The notes under the pieces are model-generated. The model did not search any database, had not been told where the DNA came from, and saw only the letters and a program-made list of their open reading frames with translations. This document shows, piece after piece, positions 1 to 14,670 of a stretch of DNA of 15,501 nucleotides (the first letter of the stretch is position 1; each line of letters begins with the position of its first letter). Source of the stretch: Paludibacter sp. (lineage in GTDB: Bacteria > Bacteroidota > Bacteroidia > Bacteroidales > Paludibacteraceae); contig JAITXR010000072.1 of NCBI GenBank assembly GCA_031284665.1, positions 1 through 15,501 of the forward strand. The letters are read 5' to 3'. The translations under genes were made by a program, and so were the position numbers.

Positions 1-2870
1 TGGACGAAAAACGCAGCGAAAGTGTAATAAAAGTTTTTGTAGATTTGCACAACAAAGGATTGATTTACAGAGGTGTACGAATGGTTAACTGGGATCCGAA
101 AGCCCTTACCGCCATTTCCGACGAAGAGGTTAATTATAAGGAACAAAATGGGAAATTGTATTATTTGAGATATAAGATTGCCGCCCCCCCAAGCCCCCCC
201 GAAGGGGGGGATGTTAGCAGCGTAGAAACAAATTTCGGCTATCTTACTGCTAACATTGCTAATTATGGTTTATTGAAAGAATTTGCTAAAAATATGCGCA
301 GATTTTCGACTGAGGCAGAGAGTGCGCTTTGGGAAATGTTGCGTAGAAAAAATTTTGACCTGCGTTTTCGCAGACAACACGTTATTGGTGATTTCATTGT
401 TGATTTTGTCTGTTTGCAAAAAAAATTGATAATTGAAGTGGATGGCGGATACCATAATGAGCCTGATGCTGTGGAACACGATAGAGCAAGAACCGAAATT
501 TTAAACAATCTTGGTTTTAGTGTCATAAGATTTTCAAACGAAGAAGTTATAGGAAATACTGATAAAGTGCTTGAAACTATCAAAGCAGTACTAACCCAAA
601 CGCCCCTTCCTTTGGATAATATTGCAAATACTACTACCCTGACATCCCCTCCTTTGGAGGGGCTTGGGGAGGCAGCGATTATCGCCACCACCCGCCCTGA
701 AACAATTTTTGGAGATGTGGCAGTTTGCATAAACCCCAACAATCCAAAAACCGCGTGGTTAAAGGGCAAACGGTTAATTGTGCCTGTTTGTAACCGCGAA
801 ATTCCGGTGATTGAGGATGAGTATGTTGATATGGAATTTGGTACAGGATGCCTCAAAGTTACGCCTGCTCACGATGTAAACGACTATATGCTCGGCGAAA
901 AATATAGTTTGGAAACGCTCAATATTTTTAACGACGACGGAACATTAAATCAATATGGTTTGCATTACGAAGGGAAAGACCGCTTTGCCGTGCGCAAATT
1001 AATCGAAAAAGAACTGGAAGAAAATGGCTTAATGGAAAAAGTCGAAGCCTACACAAATAAAGTCGGTTTTTCGGAACGCACCGATGTGCCTATTGAGCCT
1101 AAACTTTCGATGCAATGGTTTTTGAAAATGGCTGATTTGGCAAAACCTGCATTGCAAATCGTTGAAAATGATACAATTAAATTTTATCCGGCAAAGTTTA
1201 AAAACACTTATCGCCATTGGATGGAAACTATTAAAGATTGGAATATCTCGCGCCAACTTTGGTGGGGACATCGCATTCCGGCATATTATTTAACATTGCC
1301 AACAGGCGAAAAAACCTTTGTGGTTGCCGAAACAAAAGAACAAGCATACGAAAAAGCACTGTCTCAATTCCCAATTCTCAATTCTCAATTTTCAATTGAC
1401 GACCTGCGGCAGGACGAGGATACGCTGGACACTTGGTTTTCGTCGTGGCTCTGGCCTATTTCGGTTTTTGACGGAATAAATAATCCTGATAATGAGGAGA
1501 TTAACTATTATTATCCAACAAACGATTTAATAACTGCTCCCGAAATTATATTTTTCTGGGTGGCAAGAATGATTATGTCGGGCTATGAATATCGGAATAA
1601 AGAATGTTTCAAAAATGTATATTTTACGGGTATTGTGCGGGATAAATTAGGGCGAAAAATGTCGAAATCGCTCGGAAATTCGCCCGACCCGATTGAACTA
1701 ATGAAAAAATATGGTGCGGATGGCGTTCGTATGGGAATGTTGCTATCCTCGCCCGCAGGTAACGATTTGCCGTTCGACGAAAGCCAATGCGAACAAGGTC
1801 GAAATTTTAGCAATAAAATTTGGAATGCGTTTCGTTTGGTGCAGGGCTGGGAAGTTTCGTTTACAGAGCCTTTTAATGATGTTGCAAGTCTTGCCGGTGA
1901 TTGGTTTGAGGAAGTGTTGGAAAAAGCCATTGTCGAAATCGACGATTTGTTTTCAAAATACCGAATTTCAGAGGCTTTGATGCTTGTTTACAAATTGTTT
2001 TGGGACGATTTCTGTGCGTGGTATCTCGAAATGATAAAACCGGAATTTGGCAAGCCGATAGACCAATATACTATTAGTGCGGCAACTCATTATTTTGATG
2101 TGTTGCTGAGAATTTTGCACCCATTTATGCCTTTTATTACCGAAGAACTCTGGCAAGTGTTAAAAGATATGACCATTGAAACTGTTCAAAAAGAATTGAA
2201 GGAAACAGGTAAAACCAATCAGAATTATTTGAGAGCTTTGCAGCAATATATGGAGTGCGAAAGCATTATGATTACCGAAATGCCTAAAATTAGCGCTAAA
2301 CTTGAAAGCGAAATACCGGAATATTACGAAGGCGACGAAGATGATGACGACGAAGAATATTTTGAAGACCAAATAGCCTCGTTTGATGAGGAATTTGCGA
2401 TTACAAAACAGATTATCGCAGGCATTCGCAGCATTCGCCAGCAAAAAAACATTGCGCCGAAAGAAAAACTGACTTTGCAAATTTTTGGTGAACATAATGA
2501 ATTGTTTGACGAAGTGATTAAAAAATTGGGCAATATTTCGGAAATAGAATCTATCAACTCTTCCGACGAAGGGGAAAATCCTTCGCGGTCGGGTTTAGGC
2601 GGGGCGGTTTCGTTTTTGGTTGGCACAACCGAATACGCCGTTCCTGTGGAAATCAATATTGAGGAAGAAATCGAAAAAATGCAAAAGGAAATAGTATATT
2701 TGGAAGGCTTTTTGAAATCAACACAAAACAAACTCAGCAACGAGCGTTTTGTTGCCAATGCCAAACCCGAAGTTGTTGAAAATGAGCGCAAAAAACTTGC
2801 CGATGCCGAAAGCAAAATACAATCGTTGCGGGAAGGGATAAACAAATTAAAAATTGACAACGAAAAATGA
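1..2870 (+). CDS. valS: Valyl-tRNA synthetase, 5'-truncated by the window edge, with an in-frame nuclease cassette
   Basis: This class I synthetase charges tRNA-Val in the cytoplasm and hydrolyses mischarged Thr-tRNA-Val. The frame is open from the first full codon at position 3, so the TTG at 45 is not the start; the N-terminus with the HIGH motif lies upstream. Visible landmarks are the NWDPKAL strand, the editing (CP1) motifs [11 protein letters not shown] (from about 684) and [16 protein letters not shown] (from about 841), the return to the catalytic core at [14 protein letters not shown] (about 1249), KMSKS at 1656-1670, the anticodon-binding region, and a C-terminal coiled coil ending at 2870. 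Four in-frame expansions depart from the usual family sequence: a DUF559 cassette (about 180-677) in the editing domain, a heptamer array (1363-1397), an acidic run (about 2329-2370) and a short GC-rich hairpin (2567-2605). The frame stays intact through all of them, so a working enzyme is inferred. Family identity is very secure. Confidence 0.97.
184..215 (+). repeat. Left terminal inverted repeat of the valS cassette, itself a hairpin
   Basis: The sequence contains C7 (184-190), AAG, C7 (194-200), GAA and G7 (204-210), ending ATGTT. C194-200 pairs perfectly with G204-210 across a three-base GAA loop. The whole segment matches the reverse complement of 641-672 at 27 of 32 positions. In the valS frame it reads as a Pro-rich then Gly-rich peptide ([10 protein letters not shown]). 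Confidence 0.85.
270..593 (+). other. DUF559 (Vsr-like PD-(D/E)XK) nuclease domain embedded in ValRS
   Basis: The segment encodes a full DUF559-type domain of about 108 residues. It opens with a basic helix ([11 protein letters not shown]) and the conserved [12 protein letters not shown]. Next come the core [15 protein letters not shown], with an Asp at codon 402-404, and IEVDGGYH, with Glu at 435-437 and Asp at 441-443. The C-terminal half has the typical D-x-x-R ... [16 protein letters not shown] pattern. DUF559 proteins are related to the very-short-patch-repair endonuclease Vsr and are usually free-standing and of similar length. All the acidic residues expected of the active site are present, so the domain may be catalytically competent, though its target is unknown. 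An ATG at 294 lies in frame near the domain start, but no ribosome-binding signal marks it; translation as part of ValRS is the simplest reading. Confidence 0.85.
641..672 (-). repeat. Right terminal inverted repeat of the valS cassette, itself a hairpin
   Basis: CCCCTCC (646-652), TTT and GGAGGGG (656-662) form a perfect 7-bp stem with a three-base loop, followed by CTT and a G-rich tail. On the minus strand it mirrors 184-215 with five mismatches. Two of these (at the middle of the stem) are compensatory, replacing a C:G pair of the left hairpin by T:A. Translated in the valS frame it gives [10 protein letters not shown]. Confidence 0.85.
1363..1397 (+). repeat. Five tandem heptamers (YYCAATT) inside valS
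   Basis: Five consecutive copies read CTCAATT, CCCAATT, CTCAATT, CTCAATT and TTCAATT. They encode the stretch [12 protein letters not shown] just before the conserved [16 protein letters not shown] segment. The array sits in a variable part of the protein and looks like a short-tandem-repeat expansion captured in coding sequence. Confidence 0.85.
2567..2605 (+). repeat. Short GC-rich hairpin element in the 3' part of valS
   Basis: CGAAGG (2567-2572) pairs perfectly with CCTTCG (2580-2585) over a 7-base loop, and a G-rich tail runs to about 2605. It encodes [10 protein letters not shown], an insertion before the conserved [14 protein letters not shown]. The peptide and the CCTTCG, G-rich, TTT, GGCGGGGCGG layout resemble the right end of the upstream cassette ([10 protein letters not shown] in the same frame). 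It may be a degenerate solo copy; the match is only moderate. Confidence 0.45.
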
Positions 2871-2983
2871 AAAAGTTTTTTGGAATAAGAATTTTATTTT
2901 TGTTTTTACCTATATTTTTTTATTTTGTTGGGAAACACACAATAGATGATTTTAAAGAGGAAACAAAGAAAAATCCAAGATAA
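2867..2983 (+). CDS. Putative 38-aa single-pass membrane peptide, overlapping the valS stop
   Basis: An ATG at 2867 overlaps the valS TGA in the classic ATGA arrangement, which permits translational coupling. The product starts [20 protein letters not shown], with two lysines followed by about 15 hydrophobic residues, and ends in a short charged tail ([12 protein letters not shown]) before TAA at 2981-2983. This is the pattern of a small inner-membrane protein with a cytoplasmic N-terminus, or of a bare signal anchor. I do not recognise a family. The overlap, the clean topology and the sharp stop argue for a gene. The phenylalanine-rich composition could also arise by chance from the T-rich DNA downstream of valS. 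Confidence 0.45.
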
Positions 2984-3007
2984 AAAAACCGTCTTTGCAA
3001 ACTTATT

Positions 3008-3259
3008 TTATGTTCTGCATTTCTTGTCGTTTAAAGTTTTGCATTTGCGCCCACATACTTGCCCTAAAATTGCCACTGCAATAAATACAGGAATAAACGC
3101 TGTGGGCGTATGCAGCAAAATTCGCATCGTTACAATCAACGGAATTGATGCGTGAATAAGGAAAAACCACATAAACGAAAGTTTCTTATACTTACTGCGC
3201 CACATTCCAAGCGGAATATTTACAATAAAAGACGAAACGGCAACCAATATTATATTCAT
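3008..3259 (-). CDS. Small three-helix membrane protein, function unknown
   Basis: The 83-residue product has three hydrophobic segments: about residues 1-17, 29-50 and 53-72. A short basic loop (WRSKYKK) follows the first segment and a basic tail follows the last. The layout, with an N-terminal NIPLGMWR and WFFLIHASIPLI in the middle helix, resembles short uncharacterised bacterial membrane proteins I associate with this general type; I cannot name a function. Its ATG overlaps the flavodoxin TGA by four bases (ATGA, 3256-3259), so the two are very likely translated as a coupled pair and may work together in membrane redox chemistry. That functional link is inference only. It is the last gene of the minus-strand operon and converges on valS, leaving about 24 bp after the 38-aa ORF. 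Confidence 0.7.
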   Translation of the reverse strand: MNIILVAVSSFIVNIPLGMWRSKYKKLSFMWFFLIHASIPLIVTMRILLHTPTAFIPVFIAVAILGQVCGRKCKTLNDKKCRT

Positions 3260-3666
3260 TTTCCAACTATTTCTTTGATAAATTCTTTGAGATTGTCTAA
3301 ATCTTTTTCATTGGGTCGTCCTCGGTGCAATGCCGAAAATTGTCCGCGACAATGAAATTCACGCTCATCCAAAGGAATGTTTTTTGCTTTCAGAAGCGTT
3401 TTTATTTGTGAATAGGATGACGGCAATACGGCAGCAGAACTGAAATTCACCACATTTTTAACCTTTGAGTCCAAGCCTGCTATAAATTTTTTAATTTCCG
3501 CACTAATTCCCGCAGCATAAACAGCACTGCCAAGAAACAGAATATCAACATCTTCGGTTATAGGAACAGCAACCGTTTCTGCTTTTACGTCAATTTCGGC
3601 GGCGATGGACATTGCCATTTTTTGCATATGTCCTGTTTTTGAGTAATACCTTATTGCATATTTCAT
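3256..3666 (-). CDS. Flavodoxin-like protein
   Basis: This is a 136-residue single-domain protein of flavodoxin fold, close to the usual length for short-chain flavodoxins. The first strand leads into the FMN phosphate loop YYSKTGHMQKMA (residues about 7-18). The second loop is FLGSAVYAAGISAEI, which by position would contact the isoalloxazine ring, followed by a strand-helix unit (VVNFSSAAVLPSS) and FHCRGQFSALHRGRPNEKDL near the C-terminus. It should bind FMN and carry low-potential electrons in the cytoplasm, but its partner is unknown. It lies 26 bp downstream of the glutathione peroxidase gene and overlaps the following membrane gene by 4 bp, so the three probably share one transcript. 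That context suggests a role in oxidative-stress or thiol redox metabolism. Confidence 0.9.
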   Translation of the reverse strand: MKYAIRYYSKTGHMQKMAMSIAAEIDVKAETVAVPITEDVDILFLGSAVYAAGISAEIKKFIAGLDSKVKNVVNFSSAAVLPSSYSQIKTLLKAKNIPLDEREFHCRGQFSALHRGRPNEKDLDNLKEFIKEIVGK

Positions 3667-3692
3667 ATTTTTGTTTTTATATTAAATTTTTA

Positions 3693-4166
3693 TTATAATA
3701 AAATTTCTATTTCTTTTTCAATTTTTTCGGGTTTCACAAACGAGGAAAATCGTTTCACAGGATTTCCGTTTCTGTCAATAAGAAATTTGGTAAAATTCCA
3801 CTTAATGGCATTTCCAAAACATCCTTTCAACTCGTTTTTCAAGTATTTGTACAATGGGTGGGCTTTATCGCCATTAACCTCAATTTTGTCAAACATTTGA
3901 AAACTTACTCCGTAATTCAACAGGCAGGTTTCCATCGTTTGTTTATTGGGTTCTTGATGCCCAAACTGATTACATGGAAAGCCAAGTATAATCAAGCCTT
4001 TATCTTTGTATTGGCGATGTAACTTTTCAAGTCCTTTGTATTGAGGTGTAAAACCGCATTTGCTTGCTGTGTTGACTATCAACACAACTTTACCTTTGTA
4101 GGTTTTCATGCTTATCTCTTTGTTTTGCAACGAGATAGCCTTAAAATCATAAAAATTAGATTTCAT
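3693..4166 (-). CDS. Glutathione peroxidase family protein (cysteine type, probably thioredoxin-dependent)
   Basis: The protein reduces hydrogen peroxide or organic hydroperoxides with a peroxidatic cysteine. The 157-residue length is normal for bacterial members. [12 protein letters not shown] carries the peroxidatic Cys37, [13 protein letters not shown] carries the catalytic Gln71, and KWNFTKFL carries Trp123-Asn124, so the catalytic tetrad is complete. Cys81 in [10 protein letters not shown] stands where thioredoxin-dependent members keep their resolving cysteine. This favours a thioredoxin-recycled enzyme over a glutathione-dependent one. There is no signal peptide, so it is cytoplasmic. 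It is the first gene of a minus-strand group followed by a flavodoxin and a membrane protein; a terminator just upstream (4240-4273) isolates it from the efflux operon. I found no convincing TAnnTTTG promoter in its short leader. Confidence 0.96.
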
Positions 4167-4239
4167 GTTTTTTTAATATTTCAAATATTTGTAGGTTGGC
4201 GTAATTTCGAAAACCGTATATTGTGGCTCTAAAATAACA

Positions 4240-4273
4240 AACTCTAACAAGGCTCAAAAACCTTGTTAGAGTT
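4240..4273 (-). terminator. Factor-independent terminator of the efflux operon
   Basis: A perfect 13-bp stem (4240-4252 with 4261-4273) closes an 8-base loop. On the minus strand it is followed by TTGTTATTTTA. It lies just 10 bp past the stop of the PII-like gene and before the peroxidase gene, so it should end the efflux transcript. Confidence 0.88.
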
Positions 4274-4282
4274 ATTCTAATT

Positions 4283-4576
4283 TTATAACGTTTCTTCTAC
4301 GCTCCACACAAATGCGCTTAAACCTTGTTCTTCGGTTTGCTGGTTGAGCAGGCGGAGTTTCTGCATAAGCAGAGTGGCTTTGTTGTCATCCACAATAGCA
4401 ATTATCGAAGAGTTTTTCGATGGCCATGCGTGTGTGCCGTAATGCGGGTCTCCGTTTTCGCTGCCGCGCCCGAAAGTTTCGTCCCAACGCGAAAATCCGC
4501 GAACCGAAAGTTTGTCTAATAATTCTTCTATCGCTTGGTTGAGCGATTGTCCGTATGTTATAAATACTGATTTCAT
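4283..4576 (-). CDS. Small PII-like protein linked to an RND efflux pump
   Basis: The 97-residue soluble protein opens MKSVFITYGQSLNQAIEELL and contains GTHAWPSKNSSIIAIVDD in the middle and EQGLSAFVW near the end. The alternation of strands and helices fits the ferredoxin-like fold of PII/CutA-type trimers. Similar short proteins commonly follow RND pump genes in Bacteroidota. I recall them being described as PII-like, but I cannot verify that here, and the true PII T-loop uridylylation motif is not evident. It is the last gene of the efflux operon, 109 bp after the pump gene, with a perfect palindrome in the gap. Its position suggests it senses a small ligand or metal and tunes the pump, which is inference. 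Assignment to a real conserved gene is firm; the function is not. Confidence 0.8.
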   Translation of the reverse strand: MKSVFITYGQSLNQAIEELLDKLSVRGFSRWDETFGRGSENGDPHYGTHAWPSKNSSIIAIVDDNKATLLMQKLRLLNQQTEEQGLSAFVWSVEETL

Positions 4577-4592
4577 TGTTTTATATTTTTAG

Positions 4593-4613
4593 AACAAAGA
4601 ACAAAGAGCAAAG
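4593..4613 (+). repeat. Three tandem heptamers (AACAAAG-type) before the PII-like gene
   Basis: AACAAAG, AACAAAG and AGCAAAG stand in a row between the pump and the PII-like gene. A related array (AACAAAG, AACAAAT, AAGAAAG) occurs at 7834-7854 between the adaptor and pump genes, with the same TTAGA lead-in. Confidence 0.8.
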
Positions 4614-4632
4614 ATGTGTAAGATTACACATC
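4613..4632. repeat. Perfect 9-2-9 palindrome between the pump and PII-like genes
   Basis: GATGTGTAA (4613-4621) and TTACACATC (4624-4632) are exact complements across a two-base spacer. With a one-base bulge the pairing extends through CAAA/TTTG. On the minus transcript the hairpin is followed by a pyrimidine-rich run (CTCTTTGTTCTTTGTTCT). It could act as a partial terminator, an RNA processing or stability signal, or a protein-binding site. Confidence 0.7.
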
Positions 4633-4685
4633 ATTTGCCTTGTCTATCAATGTCTTTGTTGTTAATGTTTCATTGTTTTATTTTG

Positions 4686-7600
4686 TTAAAGTTCTTCTAT
4701 TGCTACTCTATTGTCGGCGCGCTCACGTTTTATTTCTCCAATATTGAAAGCAGCGTAAACCGTAGGTATTACCAGCAGAGTAAGTACGGTCGAAATCGTC
4801 AAGCCACCAACTACTGCGATACCCATCGATTGCCAAAGTTCCGAGCCTTCGCCTGTGCCTATTGCCAATGGTAACATACCAAGAATAGTGGTTGCCGAGG
4901 TCATAAGTACCGGTCGTAAACGCGATTTTCCGGCGGTAATTACTGCGTCAGTCAATCCCATTCCGCGCTCTCGTTGCAGGTTGGTAAAATCGACCATTAC
5001 AATACCGTTTTTCACCACAATACCTACAAGCATAATGGAGCCGATAAGTGCAATCAATCCGAGCGAAGTGCCTGTAATCCAGAGTGCTAAAAATACTCCG
5101 GTAAAGGCAAACAGCACCGAAATCATAATAATAAGCGGTTGACTAAGCGATTCGAACTGTGCTGCCATTACGATGTAAACCAGCAACAAAATTAGTCCAA
5201 GCAACGTTATTAAGTCGCCAAACGATTCTTCCTGATCTTCGACCGAGCCTGCTATTGCCACATCCACTCCTGCGGGCAATGTGAGTGCTTTGAGTATTTT
5301 GCGTGTTCCGGTGGCTACATCGCCAAGTGCCACGCCTTTACCCAATGATGCCGAAACGGTAACTACACGTTGGCGGTCTTCGTGTTCGATAATTGGCGGC
5401 GTAAAGTCTTCGGTAATTTTTGCAACTTCGCTCAAATGAATAGTAGCACCTTGACTGTTGATAAGGATAATGTTTTCAACATCCTCGATAGAGGTGCGGA
5501 ATGGCTCGTCGTAACGAACATAAATATCGTATTCTTCGCCATCTTCGCGGTAAAGCGAGCAGAGCATACCGTTAATTCTGTTGCGAACAAATGTGGCTGC
5601 GGTGGCGGTGTTGATGCCAAATTGCGCCAATTTTTCGCGGTCAAAGTCCACGTGCATTTCCATACGCATATCTTCGCGGCTGATGGATAAATCGCGCGCT
5701 CCGGGGATTAGTTTCATCTTGTCGGAAATTTCTTTGGCAATATCCATAGTATTGTTAAAATCGTAACCAAATACTTTTACATCCACTGTATTGCCGCCCA
5801 TCATACCGCCACCACTGTTACCATTGGTTACAGAGTATTTTGTAGGCTCGGAATATTTGGCAATTTCGGCACGTATAAGGTCGGCAATTTCAGCCTGACC
5901 ACGTTCACGGTCTTTTTTATCAACCATAACTATACTGATACTTAATGAGTTTACACCCGAATTGCCAAAAAGCGCAGCAAAGCCACCTTGGTCGTCGGCA
6001 CCTGACGAAACCGAAATATATTCTATTTCCGGAACTAATTCTTTAATGCGGTTTTCGAGTTGGTGTGCAAAAGTGGTGGTTTGTTCCAAATTGTAATTTA
6101 CAGGCAAATCAACTTTTACGGTCAATTGTCCGTTGTCGGTTTGCGGCATCATATCGGTAGAAACCAATCCCAGCACGGGTATCAGCACACTTGCAAGAAA
6201 TATAAGCGCAGCCGAAACTATTGTAATGGCTTTATGACCCACTGTCCACGTGAGCAAGCGAGCATAAGCACTATCCAATTTGTCAAGGAATTTATCTATC
6301 GGTTTAAATATTATTCCAACTCCTTTGTAAGTATGTACAAGTTTGAATTTTAGCATTTTAGCCGAGAGCAACGGTGTAAGCGTAATAGCAGCGACAGCCG
6401 AAACTACAATTACTATTGTTACAATCCATCCTAATTGTTTGAACATAATTCCTGCCATACCGCCTACCATAGTAAGTGGTAAGAACACCGCCACAACGGT
6501 AAGTGTAGTAGCGATTACAGCCAGCCAAACTTCGTTTGTGCCGTAAACTGCTGCGTCCACAGGTCGGGCTTTGCGTTCAAGGTGTTTGGTAATATTTTCG
6601 AGTACCACAATGGCGTCGTCCACCACCATACCAATGGCTATGGAGAGCGAACTGAGCGAGATTACGTTCAGCGTGCCGCCGGTAAACATTAGGTAGATAA
6701 ACGCCGCAATAAGCGAAACCGGAATGGTAAGGCAGATAATAATTGTGGCACGCCAGCGACCCAAGAAAAACAGCACTACCAAAATTACAAACAGAAAAGC
6801 AAAAATTACTGTTTCGGACAGACTGTTGATACTGTTGTTGATAAATTTAGATGTATCGTTAAGGATTCCGAGTTTGACATCGGATGGCAGTGAGGCTTGA
6901 ATTTCGGGCAGCATTTTTTTCACTGCGTTACAAATATCTACCGAGTTTGCGCCCGATTGTTTTTGTACGCTAATTCTTACACTTTGGATTCCGTTGACAG
7001 TTTCTTCTACGGTCAGTTTTCGTACCGTATCGCAAACTTGCGCCACATCTTGTATTTTTATTGGTTTGCCGTTGTAGGTTGCCACGACGATATTTTTGAT
7101 TTCGCTACTTTCGACAAATTCGCCCTGTGTGCGCAGCGACAATCGTTCCGAGCCAATATCCATTGCTCCGGCAGGAATGTTGATATTTTCCTGCGCAATA
7201 ATTTGACCTATTTGTTCTACCGTAAGGTGGTAAGCCTCTAAGCGTTGCGGGTCAACATTGACCTGAATTTCGCGGTCGGGCGCGCCACTGATATTTACCG
7301 AGCCTACTCCGTCGATGCGGTTAAGCGGGTTTGCTACTTTTTCGTCGAGCAATTTGTAAAGTCCTTTGTAACTTTGGTCGGCGGTGGCGTAAAGGAACAT
7401 AATCGGCATCATACTGGAACTGAACTTGAGAATCATTGGTTTGTCGGCTCCGTCGGGCAAATAAGTTTCGATACGCCCAATTACATCGCGAATATCGTTA
7501 GAGGCTTCGTCAAGATTCGACCCCCATTCAAATTCGAGCATAATAACCGACATATTTTCTTGCGACCGTGAAGTGATTTTTTTCAAATTCGACACCGTGT

Positions 7601-7814
7601 TCAAATTACTTTCGAGGCGTTTGGTAATATTTTGTTCAATATCGCCTGCGCTGGCACCGGTATAGGTGGTAATCACGCTAAGATAGGGAACATCCATTTC
7701 GGGGTACAAGTCAACAGATAATCTGTTGAACGCAAATACGCCCAGCACAATGGCTCCTATAAATATTAATATGGTAGAAATTGGTTTTCGTACCGCTGTT
7801 TCGTATATTTTCAT
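4686..7814 (-). CDS. RND-family multidrug efflux transporter (AcrB/MexB type)
   Basis: This inner-membrane proton antiporter moves drugs or other hydrophobic compounds from the periplasm through the tripartite pump. The 1042 residues match the normal RND length of about 1030-1050. The sequence shows TM1 (residues about 12-30), a large periplasmic loop starting DLYPEMDVPYLSV, and TM2-6 around residues 334-480. The second half repeats this layout (TM7 about 530-550, TM8-12 about 867-1020). The proton-relay pair is present: adjacent aspartates in GMVVDDAIVVLEN at about 399-400 in TM4, and the TM10 lysine in VGIVVKNGIVMVD at about 934. These and the absence of the metal-pump methionine pattern favour the HAE1 drug-efflux branch; the substrate cannot be read from the sequence. 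It follows its adaptor gene by 123 bp in the same operon. Confidence 0.97.
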   Translation of the reverse strand: MKIYETAVRKPISTILIFIGAIVLGVFAFNRLSVDLYPEMDVPYLSVITTYTGASAGDIEQNITKRLESNLNTVSNLKKITSRSQENMSVIMLEFEWGSNLDEASNDIRDVIGRIETYLPDGADKPMILKFSSSMMPIMFLYATADQSYKGLYKLLDEKVANPLNRIDGVGSVNISGAPDREIQVNVDPQRLEAYHLTVEQIGQIIAQENINIPAGAMDIGSERLSLRTQGEFVESSEIKNIVVATYNGKPIKIQDVAQVCDTVRKLTVEETVNGIQSVRISVQKQSGANSVDICNAVKKMLPEIQASLPSDVKLGILNDTSKFINNSINSLSETVIFAFLFVILVVLFFLGRWRATIIICLTIPVSLIAAFIYLMFTGGTLNVISLSSLSIAIGMVVDDAIVVLENITKHLERKARPVDAAVYGTNEVWLAVIATTLTVVAVFLPLTMVGGMAGIMFKQLGWIVTIVIVVSAVAAITLTPLLSAKMLKFKLVHTYKGVGIIFKPIDKFLDKLDSAYARLLTWTVGHKAITIVSAALIFLASVLIPVLGLVSTDMMPQTDNGQLTVKVDLPVNYNLEQTTTFAHQLENRIKELVPEIEYISVSSGADDQGGFAALFGNSGVNSLSISIVMVDKKDRERGQAEIADLIRAEIAKYSEPTKYSVTNGNSGGGMMGGNTVDVKVFGYDFNNTMDIAKEISDKMKLIPGARDLSISREDMRMEMHVDFDREKLAQFGINTATAATFVRNRINGMLCSLYREDGEEYDIYVRYDEPFRTSIEDVENIILINSQGATIHLSEVAKITEDFTPPIIEHEDRQRVVTVSASLGKGVALGDVATGTRKILKALTLPAGVDVAIAGSVEDQEESFGDLITLLGLILLLVYIVMAAQFESLSQPLIIMISVLFAFTGVFLALWITGTSLGLIALIGSIMLVGIVVKNGIVMVDFTNLQRERGMGLTDAVITAGKSRLRPVLMTSATTILGMLPLAIGTGEGSELWQSMGIAVVGGLTISTVLTLLVIPTVYAAFNIGEIKRERADNRVAIEEL

Positions 7815-7937
7815 TTGTTTATAATTATTTTAGAACAAAGAACAAATAAGAAAGAATACAGACTTCCAAAATTAGTAGTTTTTTCGTGTGCTGTGTACCC
7901 TTTGCCTGATTTCGTAATTTGTAATTCGTAATTGGTT
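7815..7937. other. Spacer with two period-7 arrays and a weak promoter-like site
   Basis: The 123-bp gap between the adaptor and pump genes holds AACAAAG-type heptamers (7834-7854) and three xGTAATT heptamers (7913-7933). TAATTTTG on the minus strand (7874-7867) matches the Bacteroidota -7 consensus, but no clear -33 element accompanies it. Positions 7864-7884 match, on the minus strand, the left arm of the clpC terminator (14623-14643) at 20 of 21 positions. No hairpin partner is visible here. Confidence 0.5.
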
Positions 7938-8957
7938 TTATTGATTTGCAACAGTTACTGTTTTCCCTTCGAGAAGTCCGGCAAGTCCTTCGACCACAAT
8001 TTTTTCGCCTTCCGAGATACCTTCAGTTACTTCGTATTCGTTGGCAAGGCGTTTTCCGAGTATTATTTTTTTGTACGAAACGCTGTTGTCGCTGTTCAAT
8101 ACATAAGCGTAACGGTCGGCTGTGCCTTGTTGTTTTACAATGGCTTTATCGGGGATTACTACACTATTTGCATCGCCAAAGTTTATAGTAACGCGGGCAA
8201 ACATTCCCGGACGAATACGCCAATTGCTGTTGGCTATCGAAATTTCGGTTGTAAACGAACGAGTTAATTCATCTACGACAGGATAAATAAGGCTTACTTT
8301 GCCGGTAAATTTTTCGTTGCCAAACACATCAATTTTCACATCCACAGACATTCCTTTTTTCACTTCCAAGAAATATTTTTCGGGGATATTAATTTTGATT
8401 TTTACCGGTGCAATTTGCATTACCGTTACAAGAGGATATTGTCCGGCGGCAAAAAGGTCGCCTTCGTCGAAATAGCGAGCGGTGATTACGCCGTTAATCG
8501 GGCTTACCAAATATGTATTTTCCTGTAAGGTAGCGAAGTTTTTTTCAGCCACATCGAGTTGCAGTTTAACGTTTTCCAAATCCTGTTGCGACACTCCGCC
8601 CACAGCGTGCAGTTCCGACAAACGGTTGTAATTGGTTTTCAGATTGGCAATTTGAATTTTTGCGTTATCTACGTTGGCATCGTCCATTTGGGCGATTTTT
8701 TGATCTTTGCTCACATGGTCGCCAACTTCAACAAAAAGTTTGCGAATGCGTCCGGGCGTACCGGCAACAATGTTGTTTTTTGCTTCGGGCAGTACGGTTG
8801 CCGAAAATTCGGTAGTCTGCGGCACAATTTTTTTGACGGCAGTTGCCACGCTTACAAGCGATTCTTTTTCGGCTACTACACTTTGTTCTTTTTTGGAGCA
8901 GGCAGTCATTGCAAGCGCCAAACCTAAAAGGCTGATAATGATACGATTCTTTTTCAT
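7938..8957 (-). CDS. Periplasmic adaptor (membrane fusion) lipoprotein of the RND pump
   Basis: This HlyD/AcrA-family subunit bridges the inner-membrane pump and the outer-membrane channel. The N-terminus (MKKNRIIISLLGLALAMTAC) is a lipoprotein signal with the acylated Cys at residue 20. Next are the first lipoyl half (GRIRKLFVEVGDHVSKDQ, about 69-86), a short coiled hairpin (about 95-145), and the second lipoyl half (SPINGVITARYFDEGD). Beta-barrel and membrane-proximal domains containing IRPGMFARVTINFG and GISEGEKIVVEGLAGL complete it. At 339 residues it is somewhat shorter than E. coli AcrA, as many Bacteroidota adaptors are, mainly because of the short hairpin. It lies 54 bp after the channel gene and 123 bp before the pump gene. 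Confidence 0.96.
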   Translation of the reverse strand: MKKNRIIISLLGLALAMTACSKKEQSVVAEKESLVSVATAVKKIVPQTTEFSATVLPEAKNNIVAGTPGRIRKLFVEVGDHVSKDQKIAQMDDANVDNAKIQIANLKTNYNRLSELHAVGGVSQQDLENVKLQLDVAEKNFATLQENTYLVSPINGVITARYFDEGDLFAAGQYPLVTVMQIAPVKIKINIPEKYFLEVKKGMSVDVKIDVFGNEKFTGKVSLIYPVVDELTRSFTTEISIANSNWRIRPGMFARVTINFGDANSVVIPDKAIVKQQGTADRYAYVLNSDNSVSYKKIILGKRLANEYEVTEGISEGEKIVVEGLAGLLEGKTVTVANQ

Positions 8958-9011
8958 AATTTATTTATTGCTAAAAATATTACAATTTGTTAATTTGTTA
9001 AAAAATATAAT

Positions 9012-10361
9012 TTAATTTTGTACTCCTAAAATTTTATCCAAGTCGGCTTTGGCGTTCAAATAGTCCGAAATTGCTTGGTTATAAGACAATTGCGCATTCG
9101 ACAGTGACACTGTGGCAGCATTCAGTTCGAGTATTGTGCCACCACCGTTTTCGTAGCGTTTAGAGGAAATGTCGAAACCTTTTTGGGCAAGGGTAATAGC
9201 CTTTTTTGCCGCCTCTACCTGTTTATCGGCTTTGTCCATATTATCGAGCGCAGAGCGGGCTTGTACTTTCAGCTGACTTTCGGTCAGGTCGCGGGCAATG
9301 TCCAACGATTCTGCTTGCACCTTCAACTTCTTTACTTTGTAAAGATTGTTGAGATGGAAAATGGGTACATTTAATTGCAAACCAACTATTAAGCCTTGTC
9401 CATACCAACTTGTGCTTGCGGGCGAGGGTTGTTGTGTAATAAAATTCACTGCTGCCTTATTTCCTTGACCGGCATAATTATATTGAGCAAAAGCAGCAAG
9501 AGTAGGCATAAATTGAGTCTTTTGTATGCTCAATGCCTCCTTTAACTGTTGTTTTTGCACATCCAATTGGAGCAAGTCCACATTGTTGTCCAACTTCACA
9601 TTACGTTCGCTGTTCAGTCCGCGCACGTCGGTTTCAAAATTGGTAAGTTTGCCTTCCACTGCAAGTTCCACCGAAGCATCGATGCTCAGCAAAACTTTCA
9701 ACATCAATTTGGCTTGACGAATTCCACTTTCGACAGCCAAAATATTTGGTTGCAAATTGTTCAGTTGCACTTCGGCAGAAATGGCATCGTATTCGGCAGC
9801 CAATCCAAGATTAAAGCGCGTTTTGGCTTGGTCGTAGTTTTGCTTGGCAAGTTTATAACTGCTTTGCAACACTGCATAAGAACTTTCAGCCAGCAACACA
9901 CCGTAATATGCTTTGCTAACATTGTTGCGCAGGTCAATTTTGGATGCAGTGGCTTTTGCCAAAGCCAACTTCATTTCTGTTTCGCCCATTTTAATTGATT
10001 GCCACAATGCAGGTGCTACCAATGGCAATGCTGCCTGCACTCCAAGCGATGCGCCCCAATCCGAAGGCAGTTTAATTGTCATTCCGGCTAATGCCATAGT
10101 TGACGCTGTGGCATATTTTTGGAATGAGCCTGTACCGTCGATGGTAGGAAACAAACCAGACCAACTTTCTTTTTTGGAGTAATCGACCCGCTGAATTTCC
10201 TTGTCGGCAATTTTAATAGTAGGGCTTTCGCTCAAGGCAATTTGTAATGCTTCGGGTAGCGACAACTTTAAGGTGTCGGGCTTAGATGACGTATCCGAAG
10301 TTTGCGCATAAGTGGCTGTGGCAAATGCCAAAACCATTAAAAACAAAAACTTTTTTCTCAT
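9012..10361 (-). CDS. TolC-like outer membrane efflux protein
   Basis: The protein forms the outer-membrane and periplasmic exit duct of the tripartite pump. A signal peptide covers residues 1-19 (MRKKFLFLMVLAFATATYA), with cleavage likely before QTSDT. Two OEP repeats follow: the first from LSLPEALQIALSESPTIKIA, the second with long helical stretches such as LTESQLKVQARSALDNMDKA and ISSKRYENGGGTILELNAA, ending in SYNQAISDYLNAKADLDKIL. The 449-residue length is normal for TolC-type proteins. There is no N-terminal lipobox, unlike OprM-type channels. It begins 27 bp after the tetR stop and is followed by the adaptor gene. Confidence 0.96.
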   Translation of the reverse strand: MRKKFLFLMVLAFATATYAQTSDTSSKPDTLKLSLPEALQIALSESPTIKIADKEIQRVDYSKKESWSGLFPTIDGTGSFQKYATASTMALAGMTIKLPSDWGASLGVQAALPLVAPALWQSIKMGETEMKLALAKATASKIDLRNNVSKAYYGVLLAESSYAVLQSSYKLAKQNYDQAKTRFNLGLAAEYDAISAEVQLNNLQPNILAVESGIRQAKLMLKVLLSIDASVELAVEGKLTNFETDVRGLNSERNVKLDNNVDLLQLDVQKQQLKEALSIQKTQFMPTLAAFAQYNYAGQGNKAAVNFITQQPSPASTSWYGQGLIVGLQLNVPIFHLNNLYKVKKLKVQAESLDIARDLTESQLKVQARSALDNMDKADKQVEAAKKAITLAQKGFDISSKRYENGGGTILELNAATVSLSNAQLSYNQAISDYLNAKADLDKILGVQN

Positions 10362-10388
10362 AACCTTTTTTTAAATTTATTTATTGAA

Positions 10389-10982
10389 TTAATTGTAGTA
10401 CATTTTAAAATATTCTTTGCCCTTAGGGCTTGCAATAACACGAATAAGCATATCGATAAAAAAATCAAACAATTGCTTTTTGCTGTATTTTTTTGTTTCC
10501 GACATTGGGAGAAATGTATTTGGAATATTGGCAAAAAACAACGATACAAGTTCGGCTTGCAAATCCTCGCGATAATAACCTTCGGCAATGCCACGTTGCA
10601 GGTTTCGCAGGCATCCGCTTTGTATTAGTTTTACTCTGTCCTTTTCGAGTTGTGCGTATAATTGCGGATAAAATTTCTGCAAATCGTAAAATATCACCGG
10701 CGTTTGTTCGGCAATATTCTTGCGAATTTCCTTCATTATGGTAATCAACCCCTCGATGGCATTTGTGCCTGCAAGCTTTTCTTCCACTCGGCACTGACTT
10801 TCAATATATTGAGTATTCAAACAAGTTTCGACTAACTCGTCTTTTTGTGAGAAAATCGAATAAAATGTTTTCTTTGATATTTGTAATTTTGAGCAAATAT
10901 CGTCAATCGACACACTACGTATGCCGTACTCAAAAAATAGTCGGGATGCAATTGCAATAATATTTTCGCGAACGCTGCTCAT
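10389..10982 (-). CDS. TetR-family transcriptional regulator of the efflux operon
   Basis: This is a 197-residue DNA-binding protein of ordinary TetR length. The N-terminal domain is clear: RENIIAIASRLFFEYGIRSV followed by the helix-turn-helix SIDDICSKLQISKKTFYSIF (residues about 25-44) and the conserved FSQKDELV. The C-terminal ligand and dimerisation domain is divergent, as is usual. It is the first gene of the operon it probably controls, not divergently oriented. Repression of its own promoter (minus-strand TATATTTG at 11013-11006) would therefore shut down the whole pump, with inducer binding relieving it. I could not find a clear palindromic operator near that promoter. Regulation is inferred from position. 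Confidence 0.95.
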   Translation of the reverse strand: MSSVRENIIAIASRLFFEYGIRSVSIDDICSKLQISKKTFYSIFSQKDELVETCLNTQYIESQCRVEEKLAGTNAIEGLITIMKEIRKNIAEQTPVIFYDLQKFYPQLYAQLEKDRVKLIQSGCLRNLQRGIAEGYYREDLQAELVSLFFANIPNTFLPMSETKKYSKKQLFDFFIDMLIRVIASPKGKEYFKMYYN

Positions 10983-11005
10983 TTGTGTTTTTTTTATTTC
11001 GAGCG

Positions 11006-11013
11006 CAAATATA
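11006..11013 (-). promoter_or_regulatory. Probable -7 promoter element for the tetR-efflux operon
   Basis: TATATTTG on the minus strand fits the Bacteroidota -7 consensus TAnnTTTG exactly and sits 23 bp upstream of the tetR ATG, giving a short leader. The -33 region (around ATGTTACA) is not a clean TTTG. Confidence 0.6.
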
Positions 11014-11339
11014 CATCTAAAAAACTGCTGTGTAACATATTTTTCCTTAAATAATATATAAAAAATCTTAAAATAAAATATCTATCTTGATTTTCAGCAC
11101 ATTAACTCTTCGATATGGAAACTACAAAAATCAAATAGTTTCTTAGTGCAAAAAAATGTGCCAATTAACAATAAACAATGAGCTAATGTGCCAATGAACA
11201 ATTAAGAAATGAAGAAATGTAGGAATTAAGATACAGCCCGTACTGTATGGACTTTATAACTTATTAAATACTAAGTAATGAGAATAAAATAATGTTACAT
11301 TACATATTTTGTAAATGATTGAAAGATTGCATCTTGTGC

Positions 11340-11360
11340 CATTTTACATTTTACATTTTA
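11340..11360 (+). repeat. Three tandem CATTTTA heptamers
   Basis: Three exact copies of CATTTTA are followed by a partial CATTA. The array lies just past the stop side of the possible 29-aa ORF. Confidence 0.85.
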
Positions 11361-11384
11361 CATTACTTAATTTGTTATTTCTAT

Positions 11385-11474
11385 TTATTTGTGAGATTGT
11401 TCTCTGCTAATAAAATCGCTGTTAATCCACAGCAATGCAAAAATCATTAGCACAATGTAGTATATAAAGCCCAT
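11385..11474 (-). CDS. Putative 29-aa membrane peptide
   Basis: ATG at 11474 opens a 29-codon frame ending in TAA at 11387-11385. The product begins MGFIYYIVLMIFALLWI, one clean hydrophobic helix, followed by the polar tail NSDFISREQSHK. Such single-helix peptides occur as accessory subunits of respiratory and transport complexes in bacteria, but this one matches no family I can name. It stands alone in the long gap, with no neighbour close enough for an operon. No TAnnTTTG promoter is obvious upstream, and 22-bp direct repeats bracket it, one overlapping its 3' end. The case for a gene rests on topology and on an otherwise non-coding region; chance is a real alternative. Confidence 0.35.
   Translation of the reverse strand: MGFIYYIVLMIFALLWINSDFISREQSHK
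11392..11413 (+). repeat. Direct repeat, copy 1 (pairs with 11499-11520)
   Basis: This 22-bp segment, starting TGAGATTGTTCTCT, matches 11499-11520 at 18 positions in the same orientation. The two copies bracket the 29-aa ORF. Confidence 0.6.
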
Positions 11475-11498
11475 TTGTTTTTTGTATTAATGTTGTGT

Positions 11499-11520
11499 TG
11501 AGATTATTCTCTATTTATAA
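11499..11520 (+). repeat. Direct repeat, copy 2 (pairs with 11392-11413)
   Basis: This 22-bp segment, starting TGAGATTATTCTCT, is the upstream partner of the repeat at 11392-11413. It lies 25 bp before the start codon of the 29-aa ORF. Confidence 0.6.
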
Positions 11521-11572
11521 GACAAATGAGGAGGAAAAATATTTTAGAAAAAAACAAAAAAAACGAAACAGT

Positions 11573-11600
11573 GATGAGTGATTAACGATTAGTGATAAAC
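11573..11600 (+). repeat. Four degenerate heptamers (GATnAnn)
   Basis: GATGAGT, GATTAAC, GATTAGT and GATAAAC follow one another without gaps. This is another period-7 array of the type seen elsewhere in the window. Confidence 0.7.
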
Positions 11601-11719
11601 ACCACCACCCCCTACAAAACGGCAACACAACCAACACAGCGATTAAAAATCGACGCAAGCAGCCGTAGTCTGTTTCTTAATCATAGTAATCTTAAAAATC
11701 TTATTAAAATCATTACTTG

Positions 11720-11735
11720 TCCCGCCAACGCGGGA
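11720..11735. repeat. GC hairpin in the tetR-clpC spacer
   Basis: TCCCGC pairs with GCGGGA around a 4-base loop (CAAC). It follows about 40 bp of ATC/AAT-rich degenerate repeats. The G+C content contrasts sharply with the surrounding AT-rich DNA, and it may be part of a dispersed repeat. Confidence 0.5.
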
Positions 11736-12051
11736 GTTCAGATAAATGCACAATGACTGGCTGTGGCTGCTGTATCTCGCTCCGTGTACCTTGTTCCGTA
11801 CTATCAAATTAGGTTTTTTACAAGATATTCTTTTCAATTATCCATTTTCAATTCCCCACTCCCCTACTCTCCCCCTGTTTTTCTGTAATTTTGTCATACA
11901 AATGTCGTTGGTATGATATTTGATTAAGTTGTGGCATAACAAAATTATACAAAACAAGTAATTTGAACGTTAATTTTATAGGAAAGATAACTTTCTTTTT
12001 GTAAATTATTTAATGGCAAAGGGAAGACAGATTTTTTCCGAAATTTTTTTT

Positions 12052-12059
12052 TATCTTTG
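12052..12059 (+). promoter_or_regulatory. clpC: Probable clpC -7 promoter element
   Basis: TATCTTTG is an exact match to the Bacteroidota TAnnTTTG consensus, 26 bp upstream of the clpC ATG. The upstream T-rich stretch shows no convincing -33 TTTG. Confidence 0.65.
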
Positions 12060-12085
12060 CATCAAATTTCCGAAAAACAATAGCA

Positions 12086-14596
12086 ATGACAGTAAATTAT
12101 AGTGAACAACTCAACAAAGTATTCGATTACAGCGTTCAAGAAGCCGAACGGCTGGGAAACGATTATGTAGGTGCTGAGCATTTTTTGCTCGGCATAATAC
12201 GCAATGGCAGTGGTAAAGCCATCGAAATAATGACAAAAGCAAATGTTGATATATTAAAGGTAAAACAAAGCATCGAAAGTCAAGTCAGAACTGACAGCGA
12301 ACCGATGCAACAAGAGGCGCATTTGCTCAAAAGTGCCGAGAAAATTAAAAACCTGATGGAACTCGAATCACATCAACTTGGTGCTAACGAAGTGGATACC
12401 GACCATTTGCTGCTCGCCATTCTGCGCGAAAAAAACAATATCGCCGTAAATGTGTTGCAAGAGCAAAATTTGGATTATGCCGATGTCAAAAGCACATTAG
12501 CACCCACCGCCAAGCCGCAAAATGCTGTATTTGAACAAGATGAAGAGGATGAAGACGAAGAAAAACCAAAAGACAGCAGCGCAAAAACTACAACAAAAAA
12601 ACAAGCCTCAAACGGAAAAAGCGACACACCCGCACTCGATGCCTTTGGTACTGACATTACGGCTGCGGCAGTTAGTAACAAACTCGACCCTGTGGTAGGG
12701 CGTAAAAGCGAAATAGAGCGAGTTGCCCAAATATTAAGTCGCCGTAAAAAGAACAATCCAGTGCTTATTGGCGACCCCGGAGTTGGGAAATCGGCAATCG
12801 TCGAAGGACTTGCGTTGCGGATTGTGCAACACACTGTGCCGCGCATTTTGTTCGACAAACGTGTTGTTTCGCTTGATATGGCGTCAATTGTAGCCGGCAC
12901 AAAATATCGTGGTCAGTTCGAAGAGCGCATAAAAGCAATACTCAACGAACTGCAAAAACATCCGGAAGTTATACTTTTTATCGACGAACTTCACACTATT
13001 GTTGGTGCAGGCTCGGCATCAGGCTCACTCGATGCGGCAAATATGCTAAAACCGGCATTGGCACGAGGCGAAATTCAGTGCATTGGCGCAACTACACTCG
13101 ACGAATACCGTCAAAATATTGAAAAAGATGGCGCATTAGAACGCCGTTTCCAAAAAATAATTGTTGAGCCAACAAGCATTGACGACACCTTACTTATTCT
13201 GCAAAATATTAAAGAACGTTACGAATATCATCACAATGTGCGTTACACTCCAGAGGCAATCAAAGCCTGCGTAATGCTTACCGACCGCTATATTACCGAC
13301 CGTTGTTTCCCCGACAAGGCTATTGATGCCCTCGATGAAGCCGGCTCGCGCGTACATATTTATTCCGAATCGGCTCCAAGCGAGATTGAAAAAATTGAAC
13401 AGGAACTTGTGGAACTGCGCAACGAAAAGCAAAAAGTAATCGCCGAGCAACAATACGAACTTGCCGCCCCAATTCGCGACCGCGAAAAACAGTTGGTTTA
13501 TGCCCTCGATGACGCAAAACGTCGCTGGCAAGAAGAGTCGTTGCAACATCCCGAAACTGTAACCGACGAGCAAGTAGCCGAAGTTGTGGCAATGATGTCA
13601 GGCGTACCTGTACAGCGAATTGCTCAGGCTGAGGGTCTGAAACTGCGCAAAATGAAAGAGGCACTGCAAAGCAAAATTATAGGACAAAACGATGCTGTAA
13701 ACACAATAGTAAAAGCCATTCAGCGCAATCGCTTAGGGATTAAAGACCCAAATAAACCTATCGGCTCGTTTGTTTTTGTGGGACCTACCGGCGTAGGGAA
13801 AACTCATTTGGCAAAAATGCTTGCCGAATTTATGTTCGACAGTGCCGAGTCGCTTATACGAATTGATATGAGCGAATATATGGAAAAATTCAGCGTTTCG
13901 CGACTGATAGGTGCGCCTCCGGGATATGTGGGCTACGAAGAAGGAGGGCAACTTACCGAAAAAGTGCGGCGTAAACCATATTCAATTATCCTGTTAGACG
14001 AAATTGAAAAAGCGCATCCCGATGTTTACAATCTGCTGCTGCAAGTAATGGACGAAGGGCGACTGACCGACGGACTTGGCAGACGAATTGATTTCAAAAA
14101 TACGATTGTGATTATGACTTCAAATGTCGGGACAAAACATTTAAAAGACTTTGGCAAAGGCATAGGTTTTAACATCAATAAAGATGTGGCAATGGATTCG
14201 CAATACGCAAAAGACGTGATAAAAAGGGAAATGAACAAAACTTTTTCGCCCGAATTTTTGAATCGCGTTGACGAAGTAATTACATTTGACCAATTAAGTA
14301 AAGAATCGATAAAATTAATTATTGACTTGGAACTCAAAGGATTGTACGAAAGGATTCTGAAAATGGGTTACAATATTGAACTTAGCGAGGCTGCAAAAGA
14401 TTTTATAGCCGACAAAGGTTACGATGTTCAATTAGGGGCGCGCCCGCTCAAAAGGGCTATCCAACGTTATGTGGAAGACCAACTTGCAGATATTGTACTT
14501 TCGGGCGATTTGAACGAAGGCGACACTATTGCGATGCAACTCGTTGATAATGACATAAAAGCGGAAATTGTGAGTGCCGAATTGCAAACCATTTAA
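12086..14596 (+). CDS. clpC: ClpC-type AAA+ unfoldase, ATPase subunit of the Clp protease
   Basis: This HSP100 protein unfolds substrates and feeds them to ClpP in the cytoplasm. The 836 residues match the family. Domains in order are two N-terminal Clp repeats (residues about 1-142), a variable acidic linker (DEEDEDEEKPKD, about 152-163), and NBD1 with Walker A GDPGVGKS (229-236) and Walker B VILFIDE (295-301). A UVR-type middle region (about 431-468, with ELAAPIRDREKQ) follows; this marks ClpC rather than ClpA. NBD2 has Walker A GPTGVGKT (566-573), Walker B IILLDE (634-639) and a C-terminal D2-small domain. The tripeptide IGF in KGIGFN (about 693-695) sits where ClpP-binding unfoldases keep their docking loop. 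It is a single-gene unit, with its own promoter upstream and a terminator downstream. No CtsR or McsAB gene is nearby, consistent with Gram-negative ClpC. Confidence 0.97.
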   Translation: MTVNYSEQLNKVFDYSVQEAERLGNDYVGAEHFLLGIIRNGSGKAIEIMTKANVDILKVKQSIESQVRTDSEPMQQEAHLLKSAEKIKNLMELESHQLGANEVDTDHLLLAILREKNNIAVNVLQEQNLDYADVKSTLAPTAKPQNAVFEQDEEDEDEEKPKDSSAKTTTKKQASNGKSDTPALDAFGTDITAAAVSNKLDPVVGRKSEIERVAQILSRRKKNNPVLIGDPGVGKSAIVEGLALRIVQHTVPRILFDKRVVSLDMASIVAGTKYRGQFEERIKAILNELQKHPEVILFIDELHTIVGAGSASGSLDAANMLKPALARGEIQCIGATTLDEYRQNIEKDGALERRFQKIIVEPTSIDDTLLILQNIKERYEYHHNVRYTPEAIKACVMLTDRYITDRCFPDKAIDALDEAGSRVHIYSESAPSEIEKIEQELVELRNEKQKVIAEQQYELAAPIRDREKQLVYALDDAKRRWQEESLQHPETVTDEQVAEVVAMMSGVPVQRIAQAEGLKLRKMKEALQSKIIGQNDAVNTIVKAIQRNRLGIKDPNKPIGSFVFVGPTGVGKTHLAKMLAEFMFDSAESLIRIDMSEYMEKFSVSRLIGAPPGYVGYEEGGQLTEKVRRKPYSIILLDEIEKAHPDVYNLLLQVMDEGRLTDGLGRRIDFKNTIVIMTSNVGTKHLKDFGKGIGFNINKDVAMDSQYAKDVIKREMNKTFSPEFLNRVDEVITFDQLSKESIKLIIDLELKGLYERILKMGYNIELSEAAKDFIADKGYDVQLGARPLKRAIQRYVEDQLADIVLSGDLNEGDTIAMQLVDNDIKAEIVSAELQTI

Positions 14597-14624
14597 ATAG
14601 TTTATAGCGATTAGTTAATAGTAA

Positions 14625-14670
14625 AAAACTACTAATTTAGGAATTAATCAATTACCTAATTAGTAGTTTT
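14625..14670 (+). terminator. Terminator downstream of clpC
   Basis: Arms 14625-14641 and 14655-14670 pair over 16 bp with a single bulged T, enclosing a 13-base loop. A-rich sequence before the stem and TTTT at its end make it potentially bidirectional. It begins 29 bp after the clpC stop codon. Confidence 0.85.

Follow-up and report, generated by a model that had tools for sequence, protein, structure and literature searches.

We analysed a window of 15,501 nucleotides (positions 1 to 15,501, forward strand, of contig JAITXR010000072.1; GenBank assembly GCA_031284665.1) from Paludibacter sp., in which the gene for valyl-tRNA synthetase (valS; protein ValRS) carries a nuclease-coding insert in its own reading frame. 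The gene occupies positions 3 to 2870 of the plus strand, its 5' end being lost at the contig edge. It was assigned from its open reading frame (ORF) and from family matches, since the ORF matches class I synthetase families and the ValRS C-terminal arm in a Pfam scan. The insert lies at 180 to 677 on the same strand, in the editing domain and directly after the YLRYKI strand, where it replaces a loop of about six residues present in relatives. An earlier note, made from the sequence of the window alone, had placed about 166 additional in-frame codons in this domain and had called the frame unbroken. Both statements hold: the interval counts exactly 166 codons without stops, and the frame is open for 955 codons, insert included. 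In relatives, 24 of 29 loci have a short loop, often EGEDG, at this site. A loop of this kind is also present in one well-sampled genus, at 23 of the 30 loci read (two genomes are common to both sets).

What the earlier note did not mention is that the insert is flanked by inverted repeats of 41 nt. The left terminal inverted repeat (TIR) at 177 to 217 is 83% complementary to the right one at 639 to 679, with which it pairs. Both ends follow one layout, in which an outer tail consisting of a C- or G-run is followed inwards by a hairpin. On the left these are the C7 run at 184 to 190, for which relatives have a similar layout, and the hairpin CCCCCCC-GAA-GGGGGGG at 194 to 210; on the right they are the hairpin CCCCTCC-TTT-GGAGGGG at 646 to 662 and the outer run GGGGAGG at 666 to 672 (all read from the plus strand).

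Between the two ends, positions 252 to 593 (plus strand; residues 84 to 197 of the ORF) encode a Vsr-like nuclease domain of the DUF559 family (PF04480). The Pfam match covers residues 92 to 197 and scores 123.9 bits against a cut-off of 20.6 (E = 3.4e-36), in agreement with the earlier description of a complete domain. The acidic residues that had been called intact are indeed present as D134 (402 to 404), E145 (435 to 437) and D147 (441 to 443), but the numbers 402, 435 and 441 are nucleotide positions and not codon numbers as had been stated. Across 182 distinct fused inserts D134, E145 and also H151 (453 to 455) are conserved in every case, E106 (318 to 320) and D147 in 180. The domain is under purifying selection, with median pairwise dN/dS values of 0.05 to 0.23 in seven host genes (pairs used after exclusion of saturated ones: PurL 13 of 21, IleRS 28 of 66, MetH 44 of 55, LeuRS 15 of 55, ValRS 10 of 15, UvrA 5 of 10 and SpoIID 3 of 3).

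Sequence searches matched two known structures, 3hrl ('Endonuclease-Like Protein') and 3r3p ('Mobile intron protein'), the latter with E = 1.5e-6 by profile and 0.0017 by single sequence. An AlphaFold2 (AF2) model of the insert has a mean predicted local distance difference test score (pLDDT) of 76.0, with values of mostly 86 to 94 in the core and below 50 in the repeat-coded ends. Searching with this model, Foldseek ranks 3hrl first, then 3r3p, which is the homing endonuclease I-Bth0305I (E = 4.1e-5). These are the sole matches with E below 0.001; weaker ones are mitochondrial ribosome proteins and then Vsr itself. Judged by profile and predicted fold, the catalytic domain is homologous to that of I-Bth0305I. 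In an AF2 model of the whole ValRS the insert stands between two strands and is connected by linkers with pLDDT below 50; because its pLDDT is only 68.8, this model was used for layout only.

The arrangement is repeated in many genomes, isolates included, and is therefore neither a product of chance nor an assembly chimera or a lone oddity. A second valS was not found in the genome itself (2.27 Mb in 419 contigs, 82% complete), and two more complete genomes (G225 and G102, 97-98%) each show one valS, insert-bearing, among the matches listed. None of the circumstances named in the earlier note as speaking against its reading, namely a second valS, a chimera or an old domain lacking repeats, was encountered, with the genome being 82% complete.

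Occupancy was read at two fixed sites. In one genus (48 genomes searched, 30 loci read at the junction) the ValRS site is full in 3 loci, empty in 23, and holds a mini-element in 4. The mini-elements (genomes G203, G239, G227 and G215) are in frame, lack the nuclease and keep the tail-hairpin unit; a stretch resembling the right-hand tail follows in three of the four (AGTTGAAGA against AGTTGAGGGGG of full copies). They probably derive from full copies by internal deletion. On the ValRS gene tree the occupied and empty states need six changes on well supported branches. The PurL site is full in 8 and empty in 22 of the 30 loci read, and the PurL tree (29 of the 30 rows, one locus without the N-terminal part being dropped) needs eight changes, five of them forced by well supported branches. 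Just upstream of this site all 8 full copies read MRLTF and all 22 empty ones M-x-F-(V/I)-F, so MRLTF is possibly a short mark of co-conversion or an adaptation. A wide co-conversion tract was not seen, 50-residue windows showing no clear excess of sharing among the full copies.

Two other loci have palindromic sequence in the same ValRS loop. In L020 (G055:C133), from another family of the order, a palindrome resembling a mini-element lies in frame. In L021 (G021:C135) the loop holds a different in-frame palindromic sequence (GATTTGCAATCGG ... GGGTTGCAAACCC), and another kind of coding palindrome may use this site as well.

The genome of origin has two DUF559 matches, in valS and in leuS. The second insert also lies in frame, just before VVFTTRPDT, which in the paralogous editing domain is the homologous site (LeuRS being assigned by similarity). 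The two inserts are 43% identical and stand in different parts of the domain tree, which rules out a recent jump between them. Genome searches were confined to Bacteroidota and used family, phylum and named sets that overlap in part. A DUF559 match is found in at least 131 of 300 genomes of the family and in at least 222 of 395 genomes of the phylum. Among the matches listed for the family, 150 rows divide into 63 with frames of at least 400 codons, 1 with 200-399 codons and 86 with fewer than 200 codons. In named genomes the best 80 of at least 564 relatives give 80 domain copies in 79 loci, of which 25 are standalone, 19 in RecG, 10 in ValRS, 8 in IleRS, 4 in LeuRS and the rest in other or unassigned hosts. 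A database search with the ValRS insert yields at least 746 long DUF559 proteins, 120 of them among the matches listed. By record titles, insert-bearing proteins and genomes belong to Bacteroidota; one locus (L218) is titled Limnohabitans and may be mis-binned.

Altogether, in-frame DUF559 domains occur in about 23 protein families across Bacteroidota, and most copies are flanked by TIRs. From 194 domain copies (loci and database proteins) 16 host families were identified: ValRS, LeuRS, IleRS, MetH, RecG, PurL, SpoIID, a polysaccharide-biosynthesis/epimerase fusion, UvrA, DegT-type aminotransferases, DNA methylase-like proteins, a FemAB-like protein, PrmC, a tetratricopeptide repeat (TPR) protein, MurC and PriA. 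The names SpoIID, PriA and polysaccharide/epimerase fusion are those which we take to belong to the respective Pfam accessions, while the methylase-like and FemAB-like labels come from weak matches below curated cut-offs. A Pfam scan of ten more loci adds seven hosts, namely MazG, a MiaB-like radical SAM protein, GH31, MetRS, urocanase, GcpE (with DUF559 at its C-terminal end) and HsdR. In methylases and HsdR the domain may be a native nuclease domain. The tally leaves out L178, L181, L188, L216 and L247, and ValRS is over-represented among the hosts, the database having been queried with its insert. To judge from the junction peptides, the inserts apparently occupy loops and linkers. The site preceding the TTRPET-type strand is common to ValRS, LeuRS and IleRS, and in IleRS inserts also occur at a second site. 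A single IleRS, in L056 (G179:C52), carries two DUF559 inserts at different sites with a short in-frame palindrome-like stretch between them.

We compared the TIR score of each copy with the highest of 300 shuffles. In loci L013-L145, which hold 98 distinct DUF559 copies (97 with flanks on both sides), 82 of the 97 flanked elements exceed this maximum (58/66 fused, 24/31 standalone), and so do 19 of the 29 in L176-L204. The named loci L205-L284 come in part from genomes of the earlier sets (L212, L272, L274), so the counts of the sets are not additive. Standalone copies carry ends of the same kind as fused ones. In fused copies the two arms of one element are more alike than arms of different elements (mean 23.5 against 12.9), and the own partner arm is best or tied in 18/66 fused, 9/31 standalone and 26/79 named copies. 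RecG-DUF559 proteins occur in 19 named loci among L217-L283, mostly Flavobacteriaceae by title; their TIRs are eroded (18 of 19 fail to exceed the shuffle maximum), and they may represent a fixed and domesticated form. Lone repeats are also present in the genome of origin. One end-like palindrome (L018, G000:C73, 1093-1119) lies in frame within a long ORF that by eye looks like a sensor histidine kinase, and three further ones lie in short ORFs only.

Fused copies were found in part through their open frames, so their being in frame counts for less in favour of the explanation developed below; the converse was therefore tested on standalone copies. Searching 32 standalone loci with 17 host proteins gave no out-of-frame copy within a host gene (four of the 17 queries hold a second, unmasked DUF559, and DUF559-to-DUF559 matches were set aside by eye). 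A candidate, L134, was rejected, as its metH has an open frame without an insert, the element being located downstream of the gene. None of the 43 standalone copies with a TIR score of at least 16 resides within a longer ORF on either strand, by which antisense residence is rejected too.

In a tree of 212 distinct domains (exact duplicates removed from 227) the host-gene label changes 37 times, against at least 121 times in 300 shuffles. As far as this tree tells, the inserts are site-bound lineages, maintained partly by vertical descent. Inserts of MurC and PurL are placed among those of ValRS with moderate branch supports, and such exceptions suggest jumps between genes.

Taking these observations together, we interpret the insert as a mobile element some 500 bp long, in which two hairpin-bearing TIRs enclose one DUF559 (Vsr/EDxHD-like) nuclease. 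It would be a homing-like selfish element that works without splicing and persists as a translated, tolerated internal domain; we give this explanation as a whole a probability of roughly 0.65. The element lies in sense and in frame and takes the place of a loop on the surface of the ValRS editing domain. An enlarged ValRS would be made and would work, with the nuclease as a tethered, unspliced extra domain and the stop-free palindromic ends as linkers, and the conserved gene would be both refuge and target. The nuclease would cut element-less alleles at or near the occupied site and repair from an element-bearing copy would transfer the element, as in the homing cycle, so that homing would take place between DNA-exchanging cells. 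Occasionally an element might jump into another gene; of such arrivals only those that are in frame, free of stops and in loops or linkers would survive. Internal deletion would leave nuclease-less mini-elements, to be compared with mini-inteins, which lack their endonuclease. The earlier note had likewise thought of a homing-like element that stays in frame and does not break its host gene. This idea gains support from the TIRs, the scattered occupancy at a fixed site, the kinship with homing endonucleases, the lack of out-of-frame copies among the standalone loci tested and the purifying selection on the nuclease.

Several results weigh against this explanation. In PurL the identities of inserts and hosts correlate (r = 0.71, 28 pairs), and the inserts form two groups that largely mirror those of their hosts, L150 being intermediate. 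Label changes on the PurL tree (8) are close to the shuffled mean of 7.2; for ValRS they number 6 for empty versus the rest (shuffled mean 6.4) and 2 for full alone (mean 2.9). With a scatter near that of shuffled labels, both trees show patchiness and not its cause. The native loop is absent from full copies of both ValRS and PurL, and comparison by eye with empty alleles reveals no target duplication at either site. Many pairs have a high or saturated dS (medians 1.06-2.31 with saturated pairs left out), and the highest single dN/dS ratio is 0.55. In addition, TIRs are weaker in the named set, where 42/79 copies exceed the shuffle maximum (RecG 1/19, standalone 19/24, other fused 22/36). Finally, the Pfam scan finds no separate DNA-binding module, the insert consisting only of the nuclease of about 110 aa and repeat-coded linkers.

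The PurL correlation suits an old polymorphism of presence and absence with losses as well as it suits homing. Under such a history each host gene would have been entered once, long ago, with empty alleles repeatedly restored by recombination and a nuclease that no longer drives spread; the clustering of inserts by host gene fits this too. We nevertheless regard it as unlikely. Near-invariant nuclease residues and the low dN/dS medians would hardly be kept by a passive passenger, the full and mini states are a minority, dispersed among empty states whose native loop is the same, and there are the apparent jumps between genes. It might instead be argued that the nuclease is useful to the host protein or the cell, in repair or defence, and that the fusion was selected. 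Purifying selection and the recurrent RecG-DUF559 of named Flavobacteriaceae with its eroded ends agree with domestication of this kind. Against it stand the widely different functions of the hosts, the patchiness within one genus and the more frequent retention of clear TIRs in fused copies other than RecG (the 22/36 of the named set and 58/66 of L013-L145), which make it improbable as a general account.

More probable than these two, though still somewhat doubtful, is a role of the hairpin ends themselves. Here DUF559 would act on these ends like a transposase, in the manner of repetitive extragenic palindromic (REP) sequences and their associated tyrosine transposases (RAYTs). Insertion would be wide, with in-frame loop copies surviving in genes. 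Such transposition would be in keeping with hairpin TIRs whose arms are matched within the element, with standalone copies having the same kind of ends, with the many host genes and with the lone repeats elsewhere in the genome. Random insertion does not, however, predict that the same positions in ValRS and PurL are re-occupied or that inserts cluster by host gene. Moreover, no target duplication was seen, and Pfam scans revealed neither a transposase domain in the window ORF carrying the insert nor an HUH tyrosine transposase. Transposition does not exclude homing: it would explain new sites, and both may operate. The least probable account by far is a spliced element (intein, intron or translational bypass) that restores a synthetase of normal size. 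The long inverted repeats could fold the mRNA, yet the Pfam scan of the valS ORF detects no intein domain, the junction residues vary among inserts (the earlier note had already stated that no intein junction residues are present), and the window has no Rfam match at gathering scores. An intein or intron is rejected on these grounds, and stop-free read-through in the host frame would not be needed for splicing.

Returning to the homing-like element, we consider it an even bet that it stands for a new class of coding palindromes that carry a nuclease and do without splicing. Members of this class would live in conserved proteins across the whole of Bacteroidota as domains that the host tolerates, and in relatives they would home by cutting alleles in which the same loop is empty. 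Now and then they would transpose to new genes by way of the hairpin ends, and through decay they would end as in-frame palindromes without a nuclease.

The element can be set beside several known systems. Rickettsia palindromic elements (RPEs) are to our knowledge without an enzyme, and we know of no established means by which they spread. Fractured genes are said to have been described by Dassa in 2009. The earlier note had pointed to a likeness with RPEs, save for the enzyme, and this is borne out by palindromic in-frame ends together with a nuclease. RPEs are palindromic DNA in frame in unrelated coding genes (PMC10969869, PMC3733652), about 150 bp long and with a conserved peptide (PMC10969869). 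In the ValRS-type element, unlike in RPEs, an intact nuclease lies between the palindromes; the mini-elements of the ValRS site, having no nuclease, resemble RPEs in form. With EDxHD/Vsr-like homing endonucleases such as I-Bth0305I (PDB 3r3p) the insert shares the homologous catalytic domain, by profile and fold, and presence or absence at fixed sites in conserved genes. Enzymes of this type are described in a review (PMC3943268) and as genes in phage introns (PMC12350094, PMC11878797), and a DUF559 gene is counted among the EDxHD homing endonucleases in a genome paper (PMC9403480). Unlike them, the insert is neither within an intron or intein nor free-standing, and is read through inside the host protein. 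I-Bth0305I has a separate, extended DNA-binding region (PMC3943268), whereas none was found in the insert, which is flanked by hairpin TIRs instead; for want of this region we do not file it as an I-Bth0305I-type enzyme.

REP/RAYT elements (REPtrons) are similar in that hairpin repeats flank a DNA-processing gene and lone repeats occur elsewhere (PMC3733652). RAYTs are HUH tyrosine transposases with GTAG-tagged REPs (PMC3733652), in contrast to the Vsr-like nuclease, the C/G-run ends and the in-frame residence in conserved genes seen here. Inteins with homing endonucleases (PMC3943268) are also patchy and site-bound in conserved proteins and have nuclease-less forms. They differ by their splicing domain; the element has DNA-palindrome ends, and nothing suggests its excision. 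A classical insertion sequence transposon has TIRs in common with the element, for which a transposase and a target-site duplication (ValRS and PurL sites) were not found. We found no description of in-frame DUF559 inserts in the literature mentioning DUF559, judged mainly by titles and abstract openings, and no paper combining DUF559 with 'inverted repeat' in the full-text literature searched (in both cases preprints and most subscription papers aside).

Some features outside the insert may be recorded. A second coding hairpin lies near the C-terminal part of valS (2563-2592, CCGACGAAGGGGAAAATCCTTCGCGGTCGG); the consensus of relatives shows a short loop containing EK there. The hairpin is not a repeat family, being single-copy in the genome at up to three mismatches. 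At 1363-1400 valS has a run of short CAATTCTCAATT-type repeats that codes for ILNSQFSI before DLRQDED. Upstream of the interrupted leuS, locus L013 has two nearly identical sequences of about 70 bp (accacaaaccacact...; complement, about 2010-2170). Elsewhere in the window, the minus strand at 4686-10982 carries resistance-nodulation-division (RND) efflux genes (an AcrB-family pump, a membrane-fusion protein, an outer-membrane channel and a TetR-type regulator). An ORF at 14880-15500, ended by the contig edge, has no Pfam match; its transposase-like look is a guess from the sequence.

According to the review cited above, homing endonucleases can invade highly conserved sequences because they are linked to self-splicing ones (PMC3943268). 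The nuclease element described here appears to manage without splicing, by residing in frame in surface loops and by having stop-free palindromic ends. If this is true, it would provide an autonomous source for in-frame palindromic elements, as a counterpart of the Rickettsia-type ones, and would account for many of the long DUF559 proteins in the database. It would also show a way for enzymes to acquire entire domains, of which RecG-DUF559 may be a fixed case. Since all three allele states of an essential enzyme (full, mini, empty) occur among sister species, both the cost of the element and its homing are directly testable.

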